A DNA stretch of 37,500 nucleotides from Porphyridium purpureum (taxonomy: Eukaryota; Rhodophyta; Bangiophyceae; Porphyridiales; Porphyridiaceae). Both the position numbers and the translations under genes were made by a program. Location: contig VRMN01000018.1 of the NCBI GenBank assembly GCA_008690995.1, forward strand, positions 1 to 37,500. Reading direction: 5' to 3'. The notes under the pieces are model-generated. The model was not told the origin of the DNA, did not search any database, and was given only the letters and a program-made list of their open reading frames with translations. Below are positions 4,307 to 26,841 of this stretch, piece by piece (position 1 is the stretch's first letter; each line of letters opens with the position of its first letter).

Positions 4307-4504
4307 TGTCACGGGAGTAGCCCGTGTGTTAAGGAAATGATTAAAAAATAGCCATAGTCCGTGGCCGGATACCTGGTCGCGCCGGACCCACTGTACTGTA
4401 GGTGTACAAGGGGGCGCGTGGTAGGCCTGAAGGCCCCTACCCTTAGGGACCAGACGCGCGATGACCACCCAGTATGGAATGGGTGTACAGCCAGGAGGTG
4501 GCTG

Positions 4505-4526
4505 GAACCTTCTGGAAGGTTCTAGA
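4505..4526 (+). promoter_or_regulatory. Heat-shock-element array in LTR U3
   Basis: GAA (4505), TTC (4510), GAA (4515), TTC (4520) and a partial fifth unit GA (4525) alternate with exactly two bases between them. This is the nGAAn inverted array bound by HSF trimers. It lies about 50 bp upstream of the LTR TATA box. The same array recurs at 10715 in the 3' LTR. HSF binding is inferred from the consensus. Confidence 0.7.
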
Positions 4527-4576
4527 CTCAGCGACAGCAAGGCACTGTACCTCGGAGGTACAGTGGTCGCGATGGG

Positions 4577-4584
4577 TATAAAAA
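4577..4584 (+). promoter_or_regulatory. LTR TATA box
   Basis: TATAAAAA, the likely core promoter of the chromovirus; the identical site in the 3' LTR is at 10787-10794. Confidence 0.7.
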
Positions 4585-5383
4585 GACGCGCGGGTCGGCA
4601 ACCAAGGGGGGGAGAGGGGGGCCGGGAGACAGAAGGAGTAAGGTGGATCTAAGTAAAAACAGGTGTATTCAAGGAAGCGTGTTCGGGCCTTGGGTACCTG
4701 TTGAGGAGCGGGGTACAGCGGGAGTACAGCGGGGGTACGGCGGGGGTACGGCGGGAGTACAGCGCGAGCGAGCGAGCGGGGGGTTTAACGGGGAAGGTTC
4801 GCGGATGCCCTGGGGTAAGGCGTCGTTAGACGGTCCTTGTTCGGAAGCGGATCCGGGGGTGGTACGTGGGCGGGGGCGGATAAAGGAGTGATAGGCCGTT
4901 TGAAGCCGAAAGGTGAGGTAACCTCCTCCGGCTAACCCCGGCTGCCCACAACGCCTCCCCGGGTCCCGGATCACCGTAAAGTGTGGCCGAACGGGATCCC
5001 GGTTGGGCAGCGGACGCCTGGTTCCCCCGTTACGCGCGTCTTCCGTGTGTGTGCTTTTGGTTGGCTGTGCCTGCTCCGTGCGTGTGCTCTTGGTTGGCTG
5101 TGTCTTTCCCGTGTGCCTGCTCTTGGTTGGCTGTGTCTTTCCCGTGTGCCTGCTCTTGGTTGGTTCTGTCGGTCCCGTGTGTGGGTGCTCTTGGCTGTTC
5201 GCGTGTGAGCAGCGTGCGTGAGCGTCGTTGGTTCCGGGTTTCCTGCCTGCCGCAGGTCCAGTTGACTGCGGGTGTCTTGTGTTTCCTCTTGGTTGCGTGG
5301 ATTGTCCAGCTTGTGTGCGTGCGTGTGCCGCTTGGCTTGCTGTTGGGTGTGCCGCGGTGTCCTGGGCCAGCACGGTTCGTGAC

Positions 5384-5401
5384 ATAATTTCCGGAAATTA
5401 T
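5384..5401. promoter_or_regulatory. 18-bp perfect palindrome at the expected primer-binding site
   Basis: ATAATTTCCGGAAATTAT is its own reverse complement. Its first base is the last base of the 5' LTR, so it occupies the place where a tRNA primer-binding site normally begins. I see no TGG-initial tRNA complement within the next few bases. How the element primes first-strand synthesis is therefore unclear. Confidence 0.5.
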
Positions 5402-5563
5402 CTTCCAGGATTGCGTGGCATCTGACGTTGGTGCGAGAGAGGGTGGGGTGTGGACGTGAGATCGGTCTTGATCTTGGGCAAACTTGTGTCCACATTCTGA
5501 TACGTACGGTCACCGAGTGAAGGATTGCGAGAGAGGATTCGGAGCAGGAACGAAGTCGCAGAA

Positions 5564-6505
5564 ATGGTGCGTGGCAGGAAGACGACGATGGGCTCAGACG
5601 ATGCGCGAGAGCACGCGTCCTCGAGCGAGCTGGAACGTGCACAGGCTGGCGCGCTGGCACCAGAGCCGACAATGCCCACGGCTCGTGGTGACGAGATAGG
5701 AAGTCATGGGGTTGTGAGTGTTCAGCAGAAGGAAGAGGGTGTCCCCGCCATTGTGCGCGGCAAGATTCGTTCTCAACTGGGCCAGGCTATTTGTGACGCG
5801 GGCGTGCAGATTGAGAAGGCCGGTGATCCACTTTTTCTGACCGCCAAGATGGTCTGGTTCAATCGCCTGCGTGACATGGGAGAGGATCCAGACCAACATG
5901 TATCCTCGATTGATGCAGTTTTCCGCGGGGTGGGGCTGAGGAAATGCTACGAGGTCCTGTCGGAGTTGCACGGTGCAACAGCACAAGAGGCATGGGCGGC
6001 AGTGGCTGCTTACTTCTACAACAAGGAGCACGAGCGCGCCCTTCGTGCAGAGCATCACGATGTTGAGTATGTTATTGGCCAGGACCTGAAGAAATTCGTG
6101 GAGGTTCTGGAGGATCGCTGCACGGCTCTGGGAGAATCTGACACTCGCAAGATTGAGGCACTTACGTTGGCGCTTCCGAAAAACTCCGAGCTGCGTCGTC
6201 AGGCCAGGACGTACGGCATACAGGGGAACTGGACCTTGATGAAGACTGCTCTGTTGGAGGAGGCTGGTCAGTATGGAACCTTTGGTGCGCTTGGCTCGCA
6301 GTACGGTGTAAGGGCAGTGAGGAAGCCCGAGCGCGTGCACCATTTGGGTAACTTTGATGAAGCTGGGCTCCATGGGTTGAATCCTCGCAAGCGACTGGTC
6401 AAGTGCTGGGAGTGCCAGGAGCGGGGCCACGTTCGCATGGAGTGCCCAAAGTGGGAGAAAAATAAGAGGCAGAGGACCGAAGAACGCCAGACAAAAAACG
6501 AGTAG
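5564..6505 (+). CDS. gag: Chromovirus Gag (capsid and nucleocapsid)
   Basis: About 313 residues from ATG 5564 (MVRGRKTTMGSD). The long central helical region matches retrotransposon gag in character. A CCHC zinc knuckle, CWECQERGHVRMEC, lies near 6410-6452 close to the C-terminus, followed by a basic tail. Gag would form the cytoplasmic particle and bind element RNA. An upstream TTG at 5525 would extend the frame but is not a normal start. It ends in TAG at 6503, immediately after the frameshift heptamer. Element protein; looks whole. Confidence 0.88.
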   Translation: MVRGRKTTMGSDDAREHASSSELERAQAGALAPEPTMPTARGDEIGSHGVVSVQQKEEGVPAIVRGKIRSQLGQAICDAGVQIEKAGDPLFLTAKMVWFNRLRDMGEDPDQHVSSIDAVFRGVGLRKCYEVLSELHGATAQEAWAAVAAYFYNKEHERALRAEHHDVEYVIGQDLKKFVEVLEDRCTALGESDTRKIEALTLALPKNSELRRQARTYGIQGNWTLMKTALLEEAGQYGTFGALGSQYGVRAVRKPERVHHLGNFDEAGLHGLNPRKRLVKCWECQERGHVRMECPKWEKNKRQRTEERQTKNE

Positions 6506-6528
6506 CGGGGGGATGCGAAGGCCCCCCG
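6493..6528 (+). promoter_or_regulatory. Predicted -1 programmed frameshift signal (gag-pol)
   Basis: A slippery heptamer A-AAA-AAC lies at 6493-6499 in the correct gag phase. Six bases later a 7-bp G/C stem can form (6506-6512 with 6522-6528) around a 9-base loop. Pol lies in the -1 frame and is open across this point. This matches the arrangement known for retroviral and gypsy gag-pol frameshifting. Confidence 0.75.
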
Positions 6529-9500
6529 GAATCTGAAGAATTGTCGGAGGCAGTCCCACTGGGCTCGTATCCGTGGATAGACGTACATGCTGAATGGGGA
6601 GGTCTGAAGGTTCGGACTACTGCGCTGGTTGATACGGGGGCTTTATCCACGTGGATGAGCGACGATTTGGCTGACCGTCTTGGGCTTCTTCGCAGAAAGA
6701 CCCACACACAGGCATTGGGCCCAACCAATGAGGTGTTGGGGGAGGCCGAGGAGAGCGTTGCCGTAATTTGGGTTGGTGAGGGAATTCAGTCGGAGGAAAG
6801 CGTCTGGATTATGAGGAACCTCGGACCTGATCTCATACTGGGAATGCGTTTTCTTGCCAAGCATGTCAGTTACTTGATCCCGGGAAGGGGTCTGGGCCTA
6901 CGCTCGGGCGGATGGATTACTTTTGTCAACCGAGACGTTTCCATTGCACAGGAAGCCGTGTGTCATACATGCCTGGAAAGACACAGGATCCTGGGATCGA
7001 TGTATGAGGAAGCCAAACCCACGGTGCAGTTGGAGGCGGTGCACTATATTGCTGATGGAGCAGAAGTGAAGAAGCGAATCCAGGCCCTCGAAGAAAAGTA
7101 TGCAGGTCACAACGAGGCTGTTTGTACTACCATTGAAGCCAAGATCTTTGAGCATTTGGATGAAGCGCAAAGCAGGGAGATGAAAGGGCTCTTGAAGAAG
7201 TTTTGGGTTCTCTTCCGGCCGGAGCTGGGTAAGACAGACCTCGTCGAGCATACGATCCGCATCAAGCCAGAGCGTTTGGAGGATCTCCCCAGGGCAAAGT
7301 TACGTCGCAGGGCTCCTGCGGTGACGCAGGCTGAGCGCGAGATGGTGCAAGGGCTGGTCGCCCGAGGAGTGCTGGAGCCGAGTTTGTCAGATGTGTCGAG
7401 CCAGAATGTCATGGTCAAGAAGCCGAATGGCGGCTGGCGTCTGACGACAGACTTCCGAACGCTTAATGATGCGACTGTTAAAGATCGATATCCCATTCCG
7501 GACGTGGGAGAGATGATCGACTGGTTTGCATCGTGGAAGTTCAAGAGTATCCTGGATCTGAAGGATGGCTTCTTCCAGGTCCCTCTGGCCCCCGAGAGCC
7601 GACCATTGACAGCGATTATCACTCCGGACGGGCTGTTTCAATACTGCCGATTACCTCAGGGTTGCTGTAATAGCCCAAGTACCTTCCAGCGATTGACAAA
7701 TACGGTCCTGGGCCCGCTCAGGTACCTGAATGCATTGGTTTACATCGATGATTTGGCAATCGGGACAAAGACGTTTGAAGAGCACTTGCAAGCGCTGCAG
7801 CGGGTGCTGGAGCAATTCTGCGCTGCGGGCTTGGTGTTCTCATTGTCGAAGTGCAGATTTGGGGCTTTAAGGGTCGAGTTTCTTGGACATGATATCGGCC
7901 TGGACGGTATAAGGCCGAGCCAGAGGAAGACGGAGGCTGTGCGAGCATGGCAGGAGCCGAGGAATGCAAAGGAACTGCAGCAGTTCATTGGGCTCGTGGG
8001 GTGGTTCCGCAATTTTATCGAGGGATTTGAGGAAGTCTGCAGACCTCTTAGGGATGCTATGAAGGGCCTTCAAATCAACGCCAAAGGAAGCAAGTGGAAG
8101 AAATACCCTATGAACTCGGCGGATTGGCAGGCACGATTTGGTGAGCCTCAGAGTCAGGCGTTTCTGTCGCTTCGGGAAGCACTCAGTGATCCAGAAACTG
8201 GAGATCGAAAGGTTTTGGCTGCATACGACCCAGAAGCAGAGCATACGCTGTGGACAGACGCTTCTAGCACTGGCTTGGGAGCAATGTTGACGCAGAGGGA
8301 GGGTACTGGCGATCGTCCAGTGGCATTTTACTCGAGGCTTCTGAGACCGGCCGAGCAGAACTATACCGTGACGGAGAAGGAGTGCTTGGCCGCCATTGCA
8401 GCCATGGAGCACTTCAGGCATTACTTGTACGGCAAACGATTCGTGCTCATGACTGACCACAGCGCATTGAGCTGGCTCATGAGGCAAAAGGAGCCTCAAG
8501 GTCGGATTGCGCGATGGATTCTCAAGGTACAGGACTTCGACTTCCAGGTTCAGCATCATCCAGGCAAGGCGAATACAGTGGCAGATGCGCTTTCGCGTCC
8601 AGCTGTACGTATGAATGGGGAAGAGGCTCGGGTGGCGAGCGAGAGCAATAAGTCTGAGACTCTCAACAACACGAGCGAAATCGAGCTCATTGGACTGAAT
8701 GCTGTTGAGGATGAGGAAGTGAAGTGGGTAGTTCGGTTGGCTGAAATGCTGCAGGAAGAGATTCAGGGTCCAGCTTCGGGGGCCGATGGGGGTATGGTCC
8801 CTGTCACATCGGCCGGAGTGCGAGAGCTGCTGCTTCATACTGGCGAGCATACAGGAGCGAACGATGCGTACACACCACCTTCGATGGAAGAGATCGTGGC
8901 TGCATACGCAGACGACACGGACATTCAGGAACAGTTGAAGAATCTGAAAGCAGATAAGCCCGAATACACGTACCCGGAGTACACCGTTGATGAGGATGGA
9001 GTCATCTGGGCTATGCTTCGCGATGAGTCCAGGGTCGTGATACCAAACGCTCTGGTGCAGCGCGTCCTGCATGTGTATCACAGCACGCCACTTTCAGGGC
9101 ACCTTGGAATAGAAAAGACTGCAAAGCGGGTCTCGGATGCACGATACTGGTGGACCGGTTGGACGGAAGATGTTCGTCAGTTTGTTCTTTGTTGCCATGA
9201 GTGCTTTTCAAGGAAAACAAAGGCGCCCCCGAGAAGGGCTCGCATGCAAGTCTATCGCGCGGTGAGACGTTTCGAGATTGTCTCGATAGATGTTCTGAGT
9301 ATCACACCGACAACAACTCGCGGGCACAGCAAAGTGGTAATCATGGTGGACGCCTTCACAAAGTGGGTTCGTGCCCATGCAGTCAAGGATGAGACTGCGG
9401 CTACACTGGCACGTGTTTTCCTAGACGGTTGGGTGTGCGATTTTGGACCGCCAGAATCTCTGCTGTCCGACCGGGGACCGGGCTTTGTAGCCGACATCCT

Positions 9501-10278
9501 TTCAAAAATGTGTGAAAATCTGGGTGTAGGACGTATGCTTACGACAGCATACCATCCGCAGACGAACGGGGTTGTGGAGCGCTTCAACCAGACAGTGTGT
9601 CAAATGTTGTCGGCATACGTGTGTGCGAACGGAAAAGACTGGGATCGCTGGTTGCCGGTAATGGTGTATGCGTATAATACAGCCCGGCATGCATCCACGA
9701 AGATGTCTCCGTTTGAACTGTTGTATGGTGAGCCGGCGCGGGACTGGGCAAGTATGGCGGGACCCAGAGCTGTTGAACAAGCAGATGACCTCGCGAAGAA
9801 GCTTGCTGCATGTCACGCCATTGCCAATAAGAATGCGAAGATCGCACAGGATCGGTACACGAAGAACTATGATCGCCGAGTCAGGGAACATGACTTCAAG
9901 CCGGGCGACGTGGTGTACGTTTGGGCGCCGCCTTCAGGAGAAGGGCGCAAGCTGAAAAAGCCGTGGGTAGGACCACTATCCATCCTGAGAATGGTCGGGG
10001 TTCATGCAGTACTGTGCAGTGAAGGCCATCCTGACGGGAAGTTGGTCCACGTGAACCGGCTTGCTCGGGCCCACAAGGACCTCCTTGAGGCAAGTGGATC
10101 CCAAGTCTTGCAAGGAGAAGACGGCAGCTGGGCTATAGAGGCTATAGCCGGGGATCGGGTTGTGGGCGGACGCCGAGAGTACAGAGTTAGATGGCGAGGA
10201 CTCGGTAAACGTGGGGATACGTGGGAACCTGAGCTCGCATTGCCACCAATGATGGTGGCTGCCTACCGTGACGCGTGA
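6499..10278 (+). CDS. pol: Chromovirus Pol: protease, RT, RNase H, integrase, chromodomain
   Basis: About 1,260 codons in the -1 frame relative to gag, with no ATG near the beginning, so it is probably made only as a Gag-Pol fusion. Domains in order: aspartic protease with LVDTGALS near 6628; reverse transcriptase with YIDDLAIG near 7741; RNase H with WTDASSTG near 8251. Integrase follows, with an HHCC zinc-binding region near 9070-9215 and a D,D,E core (SIDVLS, SDRGPG, VVERFN). A GPY/F-like KPWVGPLSIL comes next. A C-terminal chromodomain with YRVRWRGLG and DTWEPELAL lies near 10180-10245. The chromodomain usually steers integration to particular chromatin. Looks whole. Confidence 0.95.
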   Translation, partial: RVAGGCEGPPESEELSEAVPLGSYPWIDVHAEWGGLKVRTTALVDTGALSTWMSDDLADRLGLLRRKTHTQALGPTNEVLGEAEESVAVIWVGEGIQSEESVWIMRNLGPDLILGMRFLAKHVSYLIPGRGLGLRSGGWITFVNRDVSIAQEAVCHTCLERHRILGSMYEEAKPTVQLEAVHYIADGAEVKKRIQALEEKYAGHNEAVCTTIEAKIFEHLDEAQSREMKGLLKKFWVLFRPELGKTDLVEHTIRIKPERLEDLPRAKLRRRAPAVTQAEREMVQGLVARGVLEPSLSDVSSQNVMVKKPNGGWRLTTDFRTLNDATVKDRYPIPDVGEMIDWFASWKFKSILDLKDGFFQVPLAPESRPLTAIITPDGLFQYCRLPQGCCNSPSTFQRLTNTVLGPLRYLNALVYIDDLAIGTKTFEEHLQALQRVLEQFCAAGLVFSLSKCRFGALRVEFLGHDIGLDGIRPSQRKTEAVRAWQEPRNAKELQQFIGLVGWFRNFIEGFEEVCRPLRDAMKGLQINAKGSKWKKYPMNSADWQARFGEPQSQAFLSLREALSDPETGDRKVLAAYDPEAEHTLWTDASSTGLGAMLTQREGTGDRPVAFYSRLLRPAEQNYTVTEKECLAAIAAMEHFRHYLYGKRFVLMTDHSALSWLMRQKEPQGRIARWILKVQDFDFQVQHHPGKANTVADALSRPAVRMNGEEARVASESNKSETLNNTSEIELIGLNAVEDEEVKWVVRLAEMLQEEIQGPASGADGGMVPVTSAGVRELLLHTGEHTGANDAYTPPSMEEIVAAYADDTDIQEQLKNLKADKPEYTYPEYTVDEDGVIWAMLRDESRVVIPNALVQRVLHVYHSTPLSGHLGIEKTAKRVSDARYWWTGWTEDVRQFVLCCHECFSRKTKAPPRRARMQVYRAVRRFEIVSIDVLSITPTTTRGHSKVVIMVDAFTKWVRAHAVKDETAATLARVFLDGWVCDFGPPESLLSDRGPGFVADILSKMCENLGVGRMLTTAYHPQTNGVVERFNQTVCQMLSAYVCANGKDWDRWLPVMVYAYNTARHASTKMSPFELLYGEPARDWASMAGPRAVEQADDLAKKLAACHAIANKNAKIAQDRYTKNYDRRVREHDFKPGDVVYVWAPPSGEGRKLKKPWVGPLSILRMVGVHAVLCSEGHPDGKLVHVNRLARAHKDLLEASGSQVLQGEDGSWAIEAIAGDRVVGGRREYRVRWRGLGKRGDTWEPELALPPMMVAAYRDA

Positions 10279-10497
10279 CCAGTGGCGGAACCTCGGACAC
10301 ACCGGCCGGGTGGAGGGCCACGTGGACGGACGTCCTCTTCGAGTACTTACGTTGCCAAGACGGGCACACGAAGCCGATGGCCAGTGCACGGGCGACATCG
10401 AGCTTGAGACGTGGATGCCGGACGCGTCAAGCATTGGCATGTGCTGTAAGTATGAAGTGACTCTCCGGAAGCTTCGGACCATGTGATACCTGACATT

Positions 10498-10517
10498 GGG
10501 AAGCGGAGAGGGTGGGA
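10498..10517 (+). other. Polypurine tract of chromovirus
   Basis: A nearly all-purine run (GGGAAGCGGAGAGGGTGGGA) directly abuts the TGTCACG start of the 3' LTR, the expected plus-strand primer site. Confidence 0.75.
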
Positions 10518-11594
10518 TGTCACGGGAGTAGCCCGTGTGTTAAGGAAATGATTAAAAATAGCCATAGTCCGTGGCCGGATACCTGGTCGCGCCGGACCCA
10601 CTGTACTGTAGGTGTACAAGGGGGCGCGTGGTAGGCCTGAAGGCCCCTACCCTTAGGGACCAGACGCGCGATGACCACCCAGTATGGAATGGGTGTACAG
10701 CCAGGAGGTGGCTGGAACCTTCTGGAAGGTTCTAGACTCAGCGACAGCAAGGCACTGTACCTCGGAGGTACAGTGGTCGCGATGGGTATAAAAAGACGCG
10801 CGGGTCGGCAACCAAGGGGGGGAGAGGGGGGCCGGGAGACAGAAGGAGTAAGGTGGATCTAAGTAAAAACAGGTGTATTCAAGGAAGCGTGTTCGGGCCT
10901 TGGGTACCTGTTGAGGAGCGGGGTACAGCGGGAGTACAGCGGGGGTACGGCGGGGGTACGGCGGGAGTACAGCGCGAGCGAGCGAGCGGGGGGTTTAACG
11001 GGGAAGGTTCGCGGATGCCCTGGGGTAAGGCGTCGTTAGACGGTCCTTGTTCGGAAGCGGATCCGGGGGTGGTACGTGGGCGGGGGCGGATAAAGGAGTG
11101 ATAGGCCGTTTGAAGCCGAAAGGTGAGGTAACCTCCTCCGGCTAACCCCGGCTGCCCACAACGCCTCCCCGGGTCCCGGATCACCGTAAAGTGTGGCCGA
11201 ACGGGATCCCGGTTGGGCAGCGGACGCCTGGTTCCCCCGTTACGCGCGTCTTCCGTGTGTGTGCTTTTGGTTGGCTGTGCCTGCTCCGTGCGTGTGCTCT
11301 TGGTTGGCTGTGTCTTTCCCGTGTGCCTGCTCTTGGTTGGCTGTGTCTTTCCCGTGTGCCTGCTCTTGGTTGGTTCTGTCGGTCCCGTGTGTGGGTGCTC
11401 TTGGCTGTTCGCGTGTGAGCAGCGTGCGTGAGCGTCGTTGGTTCCGGGTTTCCTGCCTGCCGCAGGTCCAGTTGACTGCGGGTGTCTTGTGTTTCCTCTT
11501 GGTTGCGTGGATTGTCCAGCTTGTGTGCGTGCGTGTGCCGCTTGGCTTGCTGTTGGGTGTGCCGCGGTGTCCTGGGCCAGCACGGTTCGTGACA
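10518..11594 (+). repeat. 3' LTR of the chromovirus
   Basis: 1,077 bp, the same as the 5' LTR except for one base in an A run near its start. It contains the same heat-shock-element array (from 10715), TATAAAAA (10787-10794) and 33-bp tandem repeat. Followed by the right TTTT target duplication (11595-11598). Confidence 0.95.
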
Positions 11595-12026: not shown

Positions 12027-12318
12027 TGTTACCAATGCTGTGCCTTTTACTCTGCTTCTTCTTCTTCTTACCTCTCCGAGCAAGACCTGACCGGCTAGTC
12101 CGGGCAGGCGCGTCGCCTTTTTATACCCTTACTTCCGCCAGGGACAGCAAGGCGCCAAGAGAAATGACAATGCAAATCATTGGCATTTCTGCGCGTGTCT
12201 AGAAGGTTCTGGAACCTCTAGAAGCTTCTAGAAACGGTTAAACGGTCTACCGGTTTAACGGCTTACCGGTTTCGGATTAACCGAACCGTTCTAGGTGACT
12301 GGGGTCGAACGGATAACA
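12027..12318 (-). repeat. 3' LTR of minus-strand gypsy element
   Basis: 292 bp. In the transcribed orientation it carries a TATAAAAA box (plus positions 12118-12125). Upstream of that lie two perfect GAA-TTC-GAA heat-shock triplets (12202-12214 and 12221-12233) and a cluster of AACGG/CCGTT repeats (about 12233-12290). It has one extra 16-bp unit relative to the other LTR. Confidence 0.93.
12202..12233 (-). promoter_or_regulatory. Two heat-shock-element triplets in LTR U3
   Basis: GAA 12202, TTC 12207 and GAA 12212 form one HSE. GAA 12221, TTC 12226 and GAA 12231 form a second. The half-sites within each are spaced by exactly two bases. They lie about 77-108 bp upstream of the TATA box in the direction of transcription. 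The other LTR has the same arrays at 17365-17377 and 17384-17396. Confidence 0.65.
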
Positions 12319-12333
12319 TCTCCCCCCCTCTTG
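12319..12333 (-). other. Polypurine tract of minus-strand gypsy element
   Basis: On the minus strand AAGAGGGGGGAGA directly precedes the 3' LTR, the normal plus-strand primer position. Confidence 0.8.
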
Positions 12334-12437
12334 GCTCGACGTCTCGGCGAGACTTCAAACTAAGTTGCATTCTTGGCTCGAGGAACCCGCGCTCCGGGAG
12401 AAAACCTCTGCCTAGCAAACTTTTGACAATTCCCAAG

Positions 12438-15400
12438 TCATTCAGAGTCAGACTCTTCGATAATTTTCAACAAGTCTGACTCAGAATTGGACGCTGGCAG
12501 ATCGTCGGGTACTTCTTCATCATTTTCCCCTGCCATGTAGTCTTCGCGTCCATAGTATGGCTTCAGATGTTGGATCGGAAAAACATCATGACAAGCCACA
12601 CCCTCGGGCAAAATCACTCGGTAAGCATGCGAGCTTACCTTCTCAATGACAGGCACCGGACCAAGAAACTTTGGTGCCGCCAAATCACTCTTGTTCGGCC
12701 GCAGTTGCGGCGCCGTGACCAACACTTGATCACCAACTTGAAACTCCCGGGCATCCTTGCTTCGATCGAAGAACTTCTGCATTCTCCCCTGGGCTTCGAT
12801 CAAATTGTCGCGGACTTCTTCATGGACTTTGCACAGGCGAAACCAGTGCTCCGCCATGTCCTTCGTTTGTCCGTCACGCGCAGGCCTCCACCCTTCGCTC
12901 GGTGGAAACCAAGGATCCCTTCCATACACCACTTTGAACGGCGCGAATCCAGTGGCACTGCTTGGTGCGGAGTTGTACGCAAACTCGTACAACGGCAAGT
13001 CTCGCACCCAGCCACTATTCGTCGCCATCAACTTGAGCATTTCCCGAATCACGCGGTTCACTCGCTCAGTTTGGCCATCTGTCTGCGGGTGGTTGGCGGT
13101 AGACATTGCCAACTTCATGCCCACCCGCTTGCTCAACTGCTGCCAAAACGTGGACGTAAACAGCGGATCTCGGTCCGACACAATCGACTTGGGGTATCCG
13201 AAACGGCTCACGACGTGCTTCACGAACAAGTCAGCACAACGTTTTGCTGTCAAGTCCTTGCGCGTCGGGATAAACAGCGCCATCTTCGAATAGCGATCCA
13301 CCACAGTCATGATTGCATCACAGCTGCCTTCGCTCCGAGGCAGCTCCGTCACAAAGTCCATCGAAATGTCGACCCAAGGTCCTTCTGGGATCGACAAGGG
13401 CTTCAGCTTTCCAAACGACCGATTCTCAGACTTTGTCACTTGGCATGCGTGACAAGTCTTCACAAAACGGCTCACGTCTCGCTTCATCTTTGGCCAGTAG
13501 AAGCGAGTGATCAAAGATGCATACGTCGTGTCGGCTCCACGGTGTCCTGCTGTCGGGATATCGTGGTGGAGCTGCATGACACGCTCTCTGAACTTCCTCG
13601 GCACGCAAACGCGATTCCTCAAGTACAAGAGCCCAGCTTCGGTTCGAAAGCCTTGGTGGGTCGGTAAATCCCCCATCAAAGCACCAAAGTCTGGGTCACT
13701 CGAGTACGAACCCACGAATGCCTGGAACCCCGCACCAAATTCATCACACCGAACTTGGTACTCTAGCGCATGCAACTCTGGCTTTCTCGACAAAGCGTCG
13801 GCCACCACGTTCGACTTTCCCTTCACATAGTCGATTGTGATATCAAACTCGGCTAAAAAGTCCAACCACCGTGCTTGCCGGCCATTCAGCTCCTTCTGCG
13901 TCATCAAATGTTTCAACGCCTCATGATCTGTATGAAGCACAAACTTTGCCCCGTACAGATAAGGTCGAAACTCTCGCAGACAGTGAATGACGGCCATGAG
14001 CTCACCTTCATAGCTGCTGTACCTGGTCTCTCGGTCCAGCAGCTTCCTCGACGTAAACGCGACCGGTCTGCCTTCCTGTGCCAGCCATCCCCCCACCGCG
14101 ACTTCAGAGCGGTCCGTGTACACCTCAAATGGCTTTTCAGGGTCTGGCAAGGCCAACACCGGCGCTTCCGTCAACATCCCCACAATCTTCTTGAAGGCCG
14201 ACTTGCCTTCATCTCCCAGTTCGATCAGCTGCTTCTTCGACTTTGTGTTCTGCAACAGCGAAGTCAGCGGCGCCACGACGGTAGAGTATCCTTTAACAAA
14301 CCTCCGAAACCAGTTTGTCATTCCCAAAAAGGATCTCAACTCCGTCACCGTCTTTGGCACTGGCCAATCTCTCAAAGCTTCCACCTTCCGTGGATCCATC
14401 TTCACGCAACCGTTGCCGACAATGTTCCCCAGGTATTCGACTTCAGAAACGAAGAAGCTGCACTTCTTGCGCTTCAACCGATACCCCGCCTTTTGCAAGC
14501 GCGACAACACTTCCTTCAGGACCTCGCCGTGCGACTGCCTATCCTTGGTAAAGACCAAAATATCGTCCAAGTAGACAATGACGGTCTTGTCCAGCAGATC
14601 TGCAAACAGCTCGTTCATGGCCCTCTGAAAAGTTGCCGGCGCGTTGCAAAGACCAAACGGCATCACACGGAACTCGAACTGTCCGTACCTGGTCTGGAAC
14701 GCGGTCTTCGGCACGTCCTCTCTCCGAACACGCAACTGGTGGTATCCCGATGCCAAGTCCAACTTTGAGAAACAGTGAGCTGCTCCCAGTCGATCCAGCA
14801 ACTCATCCATGTTCGGCAACGGATACCGGTCCTTCACAGTCGCGTCGTTCAACGCCCGATAATCGACGCACATCCTCATGCTGCCGTCTTTCTTCTTCAC
14901 GAACAGCACGGGTGCTCCAAACGGGCTCTGACTCGGCTGGACGAATCCCTTATCCAGCAAGTCATCCAAAGTCTCTCGGAGGACTTTCAACTCCGCAGGG
15001 CTCAGTCGGTAGACCCTGCCCACTCTCACAGGCTTCTCATCTTTCAGCCTAATCACATGCTCCACTGTTCGGCTCTCAGGCAGCCCTCGCGGCTCCTCGA
15101 ACAGACTTTCGAAATCTTTGAGCATCTTCTTCACAGAGTCATCTCCTTTGCGCTCCACTGAACAGGGCTCCTCCCTTCCTTTCAGCACGCCGAGGTAGCA
15201 CTCTTCTACCTCCTGACTCTTCAACAGCCGACGGAGCTCTTTCCGTGGCACCAGCATCTGCGTCATGCTCCAGGCCTTCTTCTCTCCGTAGGCCAACATG
15301 CCAGACTGCCAATCAATCACTGGGTTCTCCCGCTTCAGCCACTCCATGCCCAAGATTGCGTCTTGTCCCGCAATCCGGCAAATGGCAAAGTTAGCGGCCC

Positions 15401-15830
15401 CTGAGTACCCATCGCTCAGTTCAAACTTGACATTGGAAACTTCTCCGGCTGTTTCCAATACAGACCCATCCGCTAGGGTCACATGATCTCTCTTCCACGA
15501 CGCCTTCTGCTTCAGGCCGTCGGATTTCAGCACAAAGTCCACGCTCATGAAGTTGTCCGTCGCGCCACTGTCAATCAAAAACGTGGCCTCTCCGTCGGAC
15601 TTGTGCACTTTTCCTCGAACTCGAAGAAGCATGGCAGCTCCCATCCCTCCAAGTTCCTTGATCACGGGCTGATTTGCGCTCGAGTTTCGCCCACAAGGTT
15701 TCGGACAGCCAGACCTTGGCTTACCAAGGCCACCACAGCGGTCTTCATTGCCGCCCCTAGAGGTCTCGTAACGTCTGCGAGCCTCCTTTCCCTCTGACTG
15801 TCCGAGGAACCTTTTTACTCGAGCTCCTCG
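12438..15830 (-). CDS. pol: Gypsy Pol: protease, RT, RNase H, integrase
   Basis: About 1,130 codons downstream of the shift site, in the -1 frame relative to gag. In order: protease with FLIDSGATDNF; reverse transcriptase with VKKKDGSMRMCVDYR and YLDDILVF; RNase H with VYTDRSEVAVGGW; integrase HHCC region with HHDIPTAGHRG and CHACQ. The integrase D,D,E core is seen in DISMDFV, SDRDPLF and GQTERVN. The C-terminus has FLGPVPVIEKV followed by an acidic tail without a chromodomain. The frame remains open upstream over gag to about 15929, giving the overlap. Looks whole. Confidence 0.94.
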   Translation of the reverse strand, partial: RGARVKRFLGQSEGKEARRRYETSRGGNEDRCGGLGKPRSGCPKPCGRNSSANQPVIKELGGMGAAMLLRVRGKVHKSDGEATFLIDSGATDNFMSVDFVLKSDGLKQKASWKRDHVTLADGSVLETAGEVSNVKFELSDGYSGAANFAICRIAGQDAILGMEWLKRENPVIDWQSGMLAYGEKKAWSMTQMLVPRKELRRLLKSQEVEECYLGVLKGREEPCSVERKGDDSVKKMLKDFESLFEEPRGLPESRTVEHVIRLKDEKPVRVGRVYRLSPAELKVLRETLDDLLDKGFVQPSQSPFGAPVLFVKKKDGSMRMCVDYRALNDATVKDRYPLPNMDELLDRLGAAHCFSKLDLASGYHQLRVRREDVPKTAFQTRYGQFEFRVMPFGLCNAPATFQRAMNELFADLLDKTVIVYLDDILVFTKDRQSHGEVLKEVLSRLQKAGYRLKRKKCSFFVSEVEYLGNIVGNGCVKMDPRKVEALRDWPVPKTVTELRSFLGMTNWFRRFVKGYSTVVAPLTSLLQNTKSKKQLIELGDEGKSAFKKIVGMLTEAPVLALPDPEKPFEVYTDRSEVAVGGWLAQEGRPVAFTSRKLLDRETRYSSYEGELMAVIHCLREFRPYLYGAKFVLHTDHEALKHLMTQKELNGRQARWLDFLAEFDITIDYVKGKSNVVADALSRKPELHALEYQVRCDEFGAGFQAFVGSYSSDPDFGALMGDLPTHQGFRTEAGLLYLRNRVCVPRKFRERVMQLHHDIPTAGHRGADTTYASLITRFYWPKMKRDVSRFVKTCHACQVTKSENRSFGKLKPLSIPEGPWVDISMDFVTELPRSEGSCDAIMTVVDRYSKMALFIPTRKDLTAKRCADLFVKHVVSRFGYPKSIVSDRDPLFTSTFWQQLSKRVGMKLAMSTANHPQTDGQTERVNRVIREMLKLMATNSGWVRDLPLYEFAYNSAPSSATGFAPFKVVYGRDPWFPPSEGWRPARDGQTKDMAEHWFRLCKVHEEVRDNLIEAQGRMQKFFDRSKDAREFQVGDQVLVTAPQLRPNKSDLAAPKFLGPVPVIEKVSSHAYRVILPEGVACHDVFPIQHLKPYYGREDYMAGENDEEVPDDLPASNSESDLLKIIEESDSE

Positions 15831-16621
15831 TTTTTTGACTCCAGCGAGTCTCCCTCCAGCTGCTGAATAGTCTTCCTTGCCTCGGGACACTTCCTGGCGA
15901 TGTGTCCCGGCTTTCCACAATTCCAGCATTTGAGCTCGCTTCGAACACGCCTCTGACCCTGCACGTTCCCGAGCTCCATAGGGACAGGTCCTTCCTGCGC
16001 TGCACGACCGAAAAATGGCGTCCTCACACTTGAATCACGCACGCCGCGGGTCGCATGAATGGCGTCATCCACGACCACCGCCACCTGCGCAGCCTCCGCA
16101 AACGTACTCACTCCTCGCTTGTAAACTTCCAGGCGGACCTCGGGCTTCAGACCCCTCACAAAGCGGTCCATCATTTCTGCGTCCGACAAGTCCGGAATCA
16201 CAAGTGCCGCGTCCTGAAAAGCCGCCACATACGCATGGGCCGGGCCTTTCTGCGAAAGACGCGTCAACTTGTCCCTTGCACGCCTGATCGAATCCTGCGG
16301 CGTGAACCGAGCACTCACGAGGGCAGCAAAATCATTCCACGTCGTGGGGATCTCCTGCGGGTAGCGTTCGCAGTTTAGAACCCACCAATGAAGCGCCTCT
16401 CCCTCGAAATAGTCTGATGCCAGGTCCACAGCACGCCTCTCCGCAAGCAGACGTTTCTCCAAATCGTCCGGGTGGATGCTCTCCAACAGCCGGCCCAAGA
16501 TCTTCTTTCTCGCCTGGAACAACCACGTCTTCACAACCAGAAGGTCCCTCTTCCCGTCGAACCTCATCAGACGGGCCTCCTTCGGGCCACGTGGTCCCAG
16601 CGTCTCCGAATCAATCTCCAT
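15815..16621 (-). CDS. gag: Gypsy Gag with CCHC zinc knuckle
   Basis: 268 residues from the ATG at 16621 (MEIDSETLGPRGP). The reading frame continues upstream to a GTG at 16642, which is not a credible start. The central region fits the Retrotrans_gag family (ALHWWVLNCERYPQEIPTTW; RDKLTRLSQKG). A single knuckle, CWNCGKPGHIARKC, lies near the C-terminus. The end of gag overlaps the start of the open pol frame. Element protein; looks whole. Confidence 0.92.
   Translation of the reverse strand: MEIDSETLGPRGPKEARLMRFDGKRDLLVVKTWLFQARKKILGRLLESIHPDDLEKRLLAERRAVDLASDYFEGEALHWWVLNCERYPQEIPTTWNDFAALVSARFTPQDSIRRARDKLTRLSQKGPAHAYVAAFQDAALVIPDLSDAEMMDRFVRGLKPEVRLEVYKRGVSTFAEAAQVAVVVDDAIHATRGVRDSSVRTPFFGRAAQEGPVPMELGNVQGQRRVRSELKCWNCGKPGHIARKCPEARKTIQQLEGDSLESKNEELE
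15830..15836 (-). promoter_or_regulatory. Slippery heptamer for -1 frameshift (gag-pol)
   Basis: On the minus strand A-AAA-AAC lies in correct gag phase, five codons before the gag stop, and pol is open in the -1 frame. The downstream sequence can form only a short CGAGGA/TCCTCG stem, so the stimulatory structure is less clear than in the chromovirus. Confidence 0.65.
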
Positions 16622-17169
16622 GCTTTCTGGAAACAAGCACACTCAACGACGACAACGACACAAACCGCGAGTCTCCGCTGCTCACACTCTCGAACAGCTG
16701 CGCGCAACACGAACGGGCTTCGATTGCCCTCACGAACACAAATCGACACACGAAGCGGTCCTCTCACGCACACACACGCACAGCAATCTTCTCACGTACA
16801 CACGACAAAACACACAGCAATCCTCCTCTGTTGCGCTGGATGGGGAGCGGCCCGGGCCTTTGCACTGGGGCGGGGATTATAGATGCGATCTTGTATGGAG
16901 GTGTTCGGCGCCTACCTTCGCAAAGGTGGTCGTGCGACACTAGGATGAATCCTAGTGAAGGCTGACCGTTACGGCTCTTGCCTACTAATGCGTGCTAAGG
17001 CAGAGAGCGAGTCCGCCGTCAAGGCCTAGGCCTATCGTACAGCCAAGACTGAGACCCGCTTCCGCCCGTCGCACCCTCCGGATCGACTTACTCGAACCCC
17101 CTCACCCGCAGACTCTCCCACCCAGGCAACCCCAGAGAAACGCTAAGAGAACCTTAGAGCAACCCCAGG

Positions 17170-17187
17170 TAACCAGCGATGATACCA
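17170..17187 (-). other. Primer-binding site, initiator-tRNA-Met type
   Basis: Two bases inside the 5' LTR the minus strand reads TGGTATCATCGCTGGTTA. Its first eight bases equal the TGGTATCA that begins many tRNA-iMet primer-binding sites. The rest could not be checked against this species' tRNA. The tRNA-Met at 19889 in this window does not match it and is not the primer. Confidence 0.65.
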
Positions 17188-17189
17188 AA

Positions 17190-17465
17190 TGTTACCAATG
17201 CTGTGCCTTTTACTCTGCTTCTTCTTCTTCTTACCTCTCCGAGCAAGACCTGACCGGCTAGTCCGGGCAGGCGCGTCGCCTTTTTATACCCTTACTTCCG
17301 CCAGGGACAGCAAGGCGCCAAGAGAAATGACAATGCAAATCATTGGCATTTCTGCGCGTGTCTAGAAGGTTCTGGAACCTCTAGAAGCTTCTAGAAACGG
17401 TTAAACGGCTTACCGGTTTCGGATTAACCGAACCGTTCTAGGTGACTGGGGTCGAACGGATAACA
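17190..17465 (-). repeat. 5' LTR of minus-strand gypsy element
   Basis: 276 bp; matches 12027-12318 apart from lacking one 16-bp unit of the AACGG/CCGGTTTAA repeat cluster. Drives the element leftward. Followed by CTACT (17466-17470), the right target duplication. Confidence 0.93.
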
Positions 17466-19871: not shown

Positions 19872-19877
19872 AAAAAA
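19872..19877 (-). terminator. Pol III terminator of tRNA-Met
   Basis: Six T on the minus strand, 11 bases after the tRNA discriminator base. This is the standard RNA polymerase III stop and supports an expressed tRNA gene. Confidence 0.8.
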
Positions 19878-19888
19878 TTCACTCCATA

Positions 19889-19978
19889 TGCCGATAGACA
19901 GGTTTTCACGCTCTCGCACTCGAACTGTCGACATTCAGCTTATGAGACTGACGCTCTAGCCAACTGAGCTATATCGGC
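19889..19978 (-). tRNA. tRNA-Met (CAU), elongator type, with 16-nt insert in T loop
   Basis: The acceptor stem GCCGATA (19978-19972) pairs perfectly with TATCGGC (19896-19890), with discriminator A at 19889 and no encoded CCA. The D stem is GCTC/GAGC with loop AGTTGGCTA. The anticodon stem TCAGT/GCTGA holds loop CTCATAA, anticodon CAT at 19944-19942. The variable loop is ATGTC. The T stem GACAG (19929-19925) pairs with CTGTC (19901-19897). The T loop begins with the canonical TTCGAGT (19924-19918) but is followed by 16 extra bases (19917-19902) before the stem closes. Without them the tRNA is a normal 74-mer. The A box TAGCTCAGTTGG is perfect and a T6 terminator follows. The exact exon edges can slide by up to two bases. 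Best read as an ectopic T-arm intron like those in Cyanidioschyzon; a pseudogene with an insertion is less likely because every stem pairs. Confidence 0.85.
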
Positions 19979-20220
19979 ACCGGTGGTCAGGGAGGGCAAA
20001 ATTAAAATATAATAACGCATATAACCACGGGTGCAGAGCGCAGGCGTTGACGATTGTGAGTTGGAGCAAGCGTGCGGACGCGCTAGCGTGGCTCCAGCGT
20101 CGATGAACGACAGGCGTGCATGAAAGCGCAAGTGGATGCGGAGTGACTGCGTGTAGCGTGGAGTGGCGCGCGCAGCAAGCACAACGACGTGCAGCGGGGC
20201 GCAGGAGAGGAGGGGCCACG

Positions 20221-26307: not shown

Positions 26308-26841
26308 CAGCCGCTGCCGCTGCGGCGCGCATGCGTCCCTCGGCCACGCACGAGACCGGCCGGGGCGATTGCCCGGCAGCCGGACGCTAGTATTTGTCGG
26401 GGAGGCTCTTCTCCGCACCGCGCAAGCTGCCGACGCACGAGGAATGCATGAGCACACGCACGTGGCGGCTGCGGAACCGCCGCGCTGCGCGGCCACAGTG
26501 CACCTGCAGCACCCACAGCAGACAGACGCGCTGTACCGCCGCCTTCTGCGTGCGCTGTACCCCGCCTTCCGTGTGCGCTGTACCCCGCCTTCTGCGTGCG
26601 CTGTACCCTGCCTTCCGTGTGCGCTGTACCCCCCGTCTTCTGCGCGCGCTGTTTGGCGCTGTTTTGTGATTTTCCGAGGCGCCCCGCGCGCAGGCGGGCG
26701 CGCGTCAACCGGTGCGCTGTGCGCGTCTTGGTGGGCGGTAGCAGTGGAGTGTGTGTGCGGAAACGAGGAACGCGCGGGTGTGTGCTCCACGATTGTGCGC
26801 GCGCGGCGGCCACAAGGGAAAGCGGTGCGGGACGTGGGAAG
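26308..26841. promoter_or_regulatory. Divergent promoter region, zinc-finger protein / cytochrome c1
   Basis: 534 bp of very GC-rich sequence between two divergent ATGs. It contains the 23-bp minisatellite described separately. Open frames in it are a by-product of GC richness. Confidence 0.55.
26528..26655. repeat. 23-bp minisatellite, about 5.5 copies
   Basis: Units of GCGCTGTACCCCGCCTTC followed by TGCGT or CGTGT repeat in tandem, alternating two variants. It sits in the middle of the shared promoter between the zinc-finger and cytochrome c1 genes, about 190 bp before the latter's ATG. Confidence 0.9.

Follow-up and report, generated by a model that had tools for sequence, protein, structure and literature searches.

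A nuclear elongator tRNA-Met gene with a predicted T-loop intron in the red alga Porphyridium purpureum

Introduction

Can a nuclear tRNA gene whose T loop is split by an insert still be a working gene, and if so, where would the insert be removed? These questions are raised by a locus in a 37,500-nt stretch of the genome of the red alga Porphyridium purpureum (contig VRMN01000018.1, positions 1 to 37,500; here called the window), where the body of a tRNA-Met(CAU) gene contains 16 surplus nucleotides in its T loop. An earlier note, made from the sequence alone, had read the insert as an intron and had asked how TFIIIC could recognize a broken B box. Our search of the literature on ectopic, permuted or nuclear tRNA genes in Porphyridium found no report, though an earlier one may exist.

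Results

The gene body occupies positions 19889-19978 on the minus strand of the window. It comprises 90 nt including the discriminator base A73 and reads GCCGATA-TA-GCTC-AGTTGGCTA-GAGC-G-TCAGT-CTCATAA-GCTGA-ATGTC-GACAG-TTCGAG[TGCGAGAGCGTGAAAA]C-CTGTC-TATCGGC-A. Its identity is indicated by the stems, the anticodon, the Rfam tRNA model (RF00005) and a single BLAST place in the genome. The acceptor (7/7), D (4/4), anticodon (5/5, one G.U) and T (5/5) stems all pair, which confirms the pairing and the 16-nt T-loop insert described in the earlier note, and the anticodon loop is CTCATAA. RF00005 scores the locus at 35.2 bits (cut-off 29) and skips the T arm. ARAGORN calls no tRNA on the uncut precursor; it calls tRNA-Met(cat) in all seven forms that lack 16 T-loop bases, in line with the earlier claim that such a removal restores a 74-nt tRNA with a 7-base T loop. 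Because ARAGORN missed this gene, red-algal tRNAs can escape standard finders. The gene carries G1 and U54, which we take to mark an elongator-type rather than an initiator tRNA. It is not circularly permuted, since the 3' half lies directly downstream of the 5' half.

The insert can be taken out in more ways than the three cut points proposed earlier. Eight 16-nt deletions preserve both stems and a 7-base T loop (seven scripted ones and the placement of the earlier note, with the loop TTCGAGT), and five of the eight, made after position 56, 57, 58, 59 or 60, leave a consensus-like T loop. In the minimum-energy fold of the precursor the T stem is kept, UUCG (54-57) pairs with UGAA of the insert, and the three bases AAC bulge out on the 3' side. 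Pair probabilities are 0.93-1.00 for the T stem and 0.72-0.83 for the 4-bp helix. On the 5' side of the site one base is unpaired in the minimum-energy fold and two or three in alternative folds, as judged by eye. A fold with the T stem, a 4-bp helix and a 3-nt 3' bulge arose with 41 of 5000 random genomic 16-mers put in place of the insert. A partner for UUCG by itself is easily had, as 3.5% of genomic 4-mers and 6.1% of shuffled inserts can pair with it, and the whole precursor exceeds its shuffled versions in stability only moderately (z of -1.68), 11 of 200 of them being equally good.

The Met junctions therefore match a bulge-helix-bulge or relaxed motif, by virtue of the T stem, the 4-bp helix and the 3-nt 3' bulge; we call it relaxed on its 5' side because the minimum-energy folds of Met and of the permuted Lys gene described below lack a clean 3-nt 5' bulge. 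The tRNA-splicing endonuclease cuts each bulge behind its second base, and so the intron is predicted to lie at 59/60, where its removal would leave the T loop TTCGAGC, which is identical to that of the uninterrupted Lys(CTT) and Ile(AAT) genes. In this register, chosen by the bulge-helix-bulge geometry of the folds, the 5' exon (19919-19978, minus strand) holds positions 1-59, that is the 5' strand of the acceptor, the D and anticodon arms, the 5' strand of the T stem and TTCGAG; the predicted 16-nt intron TGCGAGAGCGTGAAAA covers 19903-19918; and the 3' exon (19889-19902) holds positions 60-73, namely C60, the 3' strands of the T stem and the acceptor, and A73. In geometry, position 59/60 in the 7-base T loop mirrors 37/38 in the 7-base anticodon loop: each falls between the sixth and seventh bases of its loop, and the base after that closes a stem of 5 bp. 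We favour 59/60 as the best-supported cut position over the other registers, which were judged by geometry alone; this falls short of proof, because other registers also yield acceptable T loops. The earlier note was right about the T-loop site and less so about the register, which it placed after position 60, while the fold favours 59/60. An intron in the T arm of a red-algal nuclear tRNA, as that note had proposed, is the best reading of the locus. The genome encodes a splicing endonuclease: two genes carry the catalytic domain of tRNA-intron endonuclease (PF01974), one of them, on contig C11, named Sen2 by NCBI (Sen54 and Sen15 fall outside this count).

The signals around the gene were then compared with those of other tRNA genes. 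The A-box region TAGCTCAGTTGG is present, as is the T6 run reported before, a candidate pol III terminator at 19872-19877 (minus strand) that begins 12 nt past the discriminator base. Moreover, a TATA-like element, TATATT, is found at 20006-20011 (minus strand) and begins 33 nt ahead of position 1. An exact TATAWW lies between -55 and -16 in 11 of 15 tRNA genes, Met included (TATATT, -33), and at 26 of 4972 flank positions in the controls, with the caveat that motif and interval were chosen after some upstream sequences had been seen. It is absent in the other 4 of 15, and a one-mismatch form occurs at 14.6% of control positions. A run of four or more T within 45 nt downstream was seen in 14/15 genes, a count made without a control. 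In this survey the permuted gene was counted from its 3' half; Ser(TGA), which was found later and has TATATAAA about 60 nt upstream, is outside the 15-gene TATA count. The upstream TATATT and the downstream T6 suggest a working pol III gene.

The B box corresponds to positions 52-62 (excerpts of PMC3978253), and an intron at 59/60 would therefore displace its last three bases. In this register it is interrupted after position 59 and is not whole as a signal; the earlier note had put the break at its last base. The likely answer to how TFIIIC would read such a broken box is the upstream TATA-like element. A search for the TFC3-type domain PF04182 gave no match, which is a weak negative given a control set without eukaryotes. 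A Tau95/TFC1-like domain scored 27.5 bits (cut-off 23.7), or 24.8 bits over the whole ORF; the UniRef name of this ORF starts with 'Transcription factor IIIC subun', its NCBI name is hypothetical, and the only relative listed is the protein itself.

An intact elongator tRNA-Met elsewhere in the genome (22.16 Mb, 46 contigs) would speak for a pseudogene, a check that the earlier note had named. None was found by BLAST and pattern searches, which were non-exhaustive. BLAST of the 90-nt gene against its own genome returned the self-match only. The 17-mer of the anticodon arm, with up to 3 mismatches, occurs at 28 places, as against 28 in the reversed control, and among these CTCATAA and a full stem coincide, by eye, at the Met locus only. 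One of them, C1:2128178, has a CTCATAA loop with 4/5 anticodon-stem pairs; neither it nor two further anticodon-arm places match the tRNA models, and in two of these three places inspection by eye shows no D arm. For the pattern AGC-N6-CTCATAA-N7-G-N-C, one mismatch being allowed, there are 142 places compared with 77 in the control. The 100 places listed of the 142 include all 6 exact ones: among the exact places the stem can pair at the Met locus only, and of the listed places with one mismatch, 10 retain CTCATAA and none of these can pair the stem (both by eye).

The 13-mer GGGCTCATAACCC, an anticodon pattern of initiator Met, was found at 34 genomic places, as against 0 in the reversed control. 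Four of the 34 were viewed as possible initiator tRNA genes (L082-L085, near position 1501) and are not tRNA genes. These four copies have the 16-mer GCTGGGCTCATAACCC in common, three with one flank and one with another. Copia elements have a primer-binding site for a half tRNA-iMet, and by analogy the GGGCTCATAACCC copies may be such a site. Separately, the window contains two Ty3/gypsy-type retrotransposons (4344-11424 and 12027-17465), each flanked by near-identical direct repeats; both encode protease, RT-RNaseH and integrase domains, and one of them a chromodomain.

The Met gene is one of 16 tRNA genes that we met in P. purpureum, a biased sample in that only 63 of the 475 candidates were scored in the genome-wide search with the Rfam model. 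Seven look free of inserts, Lys(CTT), Phe(GAA), Arg(ACG), Gln(CTG), Ala(CGC), Leu(CAA) and Ile(AAT), and Arg(TCT) has an insert in the anticodon loop only. Seven are disrupted outside 37/38, and one (L051, C43:432778) was left without a class. Besides Met, the disrupted genes are Gly(CCC), with a 13-nt insert in the D loop; Ala(TGC), with 20 nt in the D arm; Ser(TGA), with 27 nt in the D arm and 41 nt in the anticodon arm; Gly(GCC) (L012), with about 15 and about 28 nt in the same two arms; Val(CAC) (L049, C43:1558148), with about 38 nt in the anticodon arm and about 20 in the T arm; and Lys(TTT), which is circularly permuted. The insert boundaries in these other genes are read to within a few bases. 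Disruptions of the T arm concern 3 of the 16 genes (Met, Val and Lys). In Val(CAC), where the roughly 20 extra T-arm bases go together with a C at position 54, a UUCG-type helix at 59/60 was not found.

The searches differed in what they recovered. The uninterrupted Ile(AAT) scores 59.5 bits on the Rfam model, yet it is absent from the list of the genome-wide Rfam search. A custom covariance model was built from seven tRNAs, two of which are not among the 72 sources searched. With E values of up to 1 allowed, its 16 matches, in which some loci are listed twice, comprise 5 of the 7 founding tRNAs, Ile(AAT), five disrupted genes that score 20-30 bits, and two weak matches. Leu(CAA), Ser(TGA) and Gly(GCC) were not recovered, though their loci are among the sources. 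A pattern for an intact B box occurred at 40 places compared with 38 in the reversed control, and among the 30 with loci the T stem is complete in 5, of which 3 belong to tRNA genes. When 3 mismatches were allowed, a D-arm pattern gave 42 places as against 54 in the control, its best matches including real tRNAs. A shorter version matched at 4 places, and 3 of these fall in tRNA genes that the Rfam search had listed before. A further D-arm pattern hit one place that is not tRNA-like. Finally, a tRNA-His called by ARAGORN at 26455-26529 of the window is probably false, because it lies inside a zinc-finger ORF and is missing from the Rfam list.

The permuted Lys(TTT) gene lies on the minus strand of contig C2 at about 2091234-2091334 (L013, L046), with its junction at 59/60. 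The 5' half (positions 1-59) ends soon before a T5 run, and the 3' half (from C60 on) sits upstream of it, with 27 nt between the two, behind the TATA-like element TATATATA. When joined, the halves pair throughout, in the acceptor (7/7, three wobbles), D (4/4), anticodon (5/5) and T (5/5) stems, and ARAGORN calls tRNA-Lys(ttt). None of 20000 random 100-nt stretches contained a fitting 3' half. In the predicted fold of the linear precursor the leader CGAA pairs with UUCG and the three bases AUC bulge out on the 3' side, with no bulge opposite. The comparison with Cyanidioschyzon merolae drawn in the earlier note, which pointed to its ectopic introns and permuted tRNAs, is apt. In that alga, too, the Lys(TTT) gene is permuted at 59/60.

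Discussion

We conclude that the Met locus is very probably a working nuclear elongator tRNA-Met(CAU) gene whose intron would be spliced at 59/60. Based on sequence and predicted folds, we infer the following course of events. Pol III would be recruited mainly via the upstream TATA-like element and would terminate at T6. In the transcript, UUCG of the T loop is predicted to pair with UGAA of the insert, leaving the AAC bulge at the T stem, a short unpaired 5' stretch and a small hairpin cap; the 5' side differs among near-equal predicted folds. The tRNA-splicing endonuclease would cut at AG^U and AA^C, and ligation would yield a functional 74-nt tRNA with the T loop UUCGAGC.

Could the tRNA instead work unspliced, with a T loop of 23 bases? 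We regard this as extremely improbable. A standard T arm is needed for elbow contacts and elongation-factor binding, and the gene has retained U54, U55, C56, A58 and an exact T stem, consistent with selection for a normal T loop. A different splice position, such as 56/57, 57/58 or 58/59, which would give TTCAAAC or TTCGAAC loops, appears unlikely. Canonical-looking T loops do arise from several of the 16-nt deletions, and non-canonical positions of the 56/57 type are known in archaea (excerpts of PMC4090602). However, at 59/60 the T stem and the 3-nt 3' bulge match the endonuclease motif. The halves of the permuted Lys(TTT) gene of P. purpureum meet at this position as well, and so do those of permuted genes in both C. 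merolae and Thermofilum (excerpts of PMC3978253).

The insert might also be a small insertion that broke the gene, with the true elongator tRNA-Met encoded elsewhere, perhaps in a permuted or multiply interrupted form that would escape our searches. Short insertions in the D and T arms of eukaryotic tRNA genes are mostly found in one of many synonymous copies and are supposed to mark pseudogenes (excerpts of PMC4090602), and our genome searches for an elongator tRNA-Met were non-exhaustive. Nevertheless, we consider a pseudogene quite unlikely: all stems still pair, TATATT and T6 are retained, BLAST with the 90-nt gene returns only itself, and the Met locus alone among the 28 anticodon-arm places combines CTCATAA with a full stem. 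An isolated pseudogene is made less likely by the other disrupted tRNA genes of the genome.

If the locus is indeed an intron-containing gene, the highly disrupted tRNA system of C. merolae extends to a second red alga. P. purpureum thereby becomes a further system in which to study the age of permuted and ectopic-intron tRNA genes, the reading of a T-loop site by the endonuclease, and the question whether tRNA genes with a TATA-like promoter can do without the internal B box. More speculatively, disrupted tRNA genes might be an ancestral, retained trait of red algae and not an oddity of the hot-acid Cyanidioschyzon. The permuted Lys(TTT) gene would then predate the split of the lineages, and TATA-driven pol III transcription would have made an intact B box dispensable, letting T-loop introns persist even in what is apparently the only elongator tRNA-Met gene. 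We put this forward tentatively and with more doubt than conviction.

P. purpureum is mesophilic and belongs to a different lineage from C. merolae. The two share being red algae with disrupted nuclear tRNA genes, an upstream TATA-like element and a permuted Lys(TTT) gene with its junction at 59/60 (for C. merolae, Table 1 in the excerpts of PMC3978253); this permutation may reflect either shared ancestry or convergence. In C. merolae, nuclear tRNA introns occur in the D, anticodon and T arms alongside permuted genes (excerpts of PMC3978253 and PMC9602550), and Ile(UAU) has a T-arm intron (excerpts of PMC9602550). According to the excerpts of PMC3978253, homologues of TFC1 and TFC3 were not identified there, and TATA-driven, TFIIIC-independent transcription was proposed; in P. 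purpureum, in contrast, a Tau95/TFC1-like domain is detectable. The nucleomorph of Guillardia theta also has T-arm introns, whose excision was confirmed by RT-PCR for some, and its elongator tRNA-Met is among the genes with three introns (excerpts of PMC4090602). That genome, however, belongs to a relict nucleus with insertions of 3 to 24 nt and T-arm introns of 3 nt (same excerpts), whereas the Met gene of P. purpureum has one 16-nt insert and resides in a free-living nucleus. In archaea, 59/60 is among the non-canonical intron positions and the same bulge-helix-bulge logic applies (excerpts of PMC4090602), in another domain of life and with another endonuclease architecture. Ectopic and T-arm tRNA introns thus have precedents in C. 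merolae, in Guillardia nucleomorphs and in archaea, and the Met gene of P. purpureum would be a further case of this known kind, in a lineage for which our literature search found no report.
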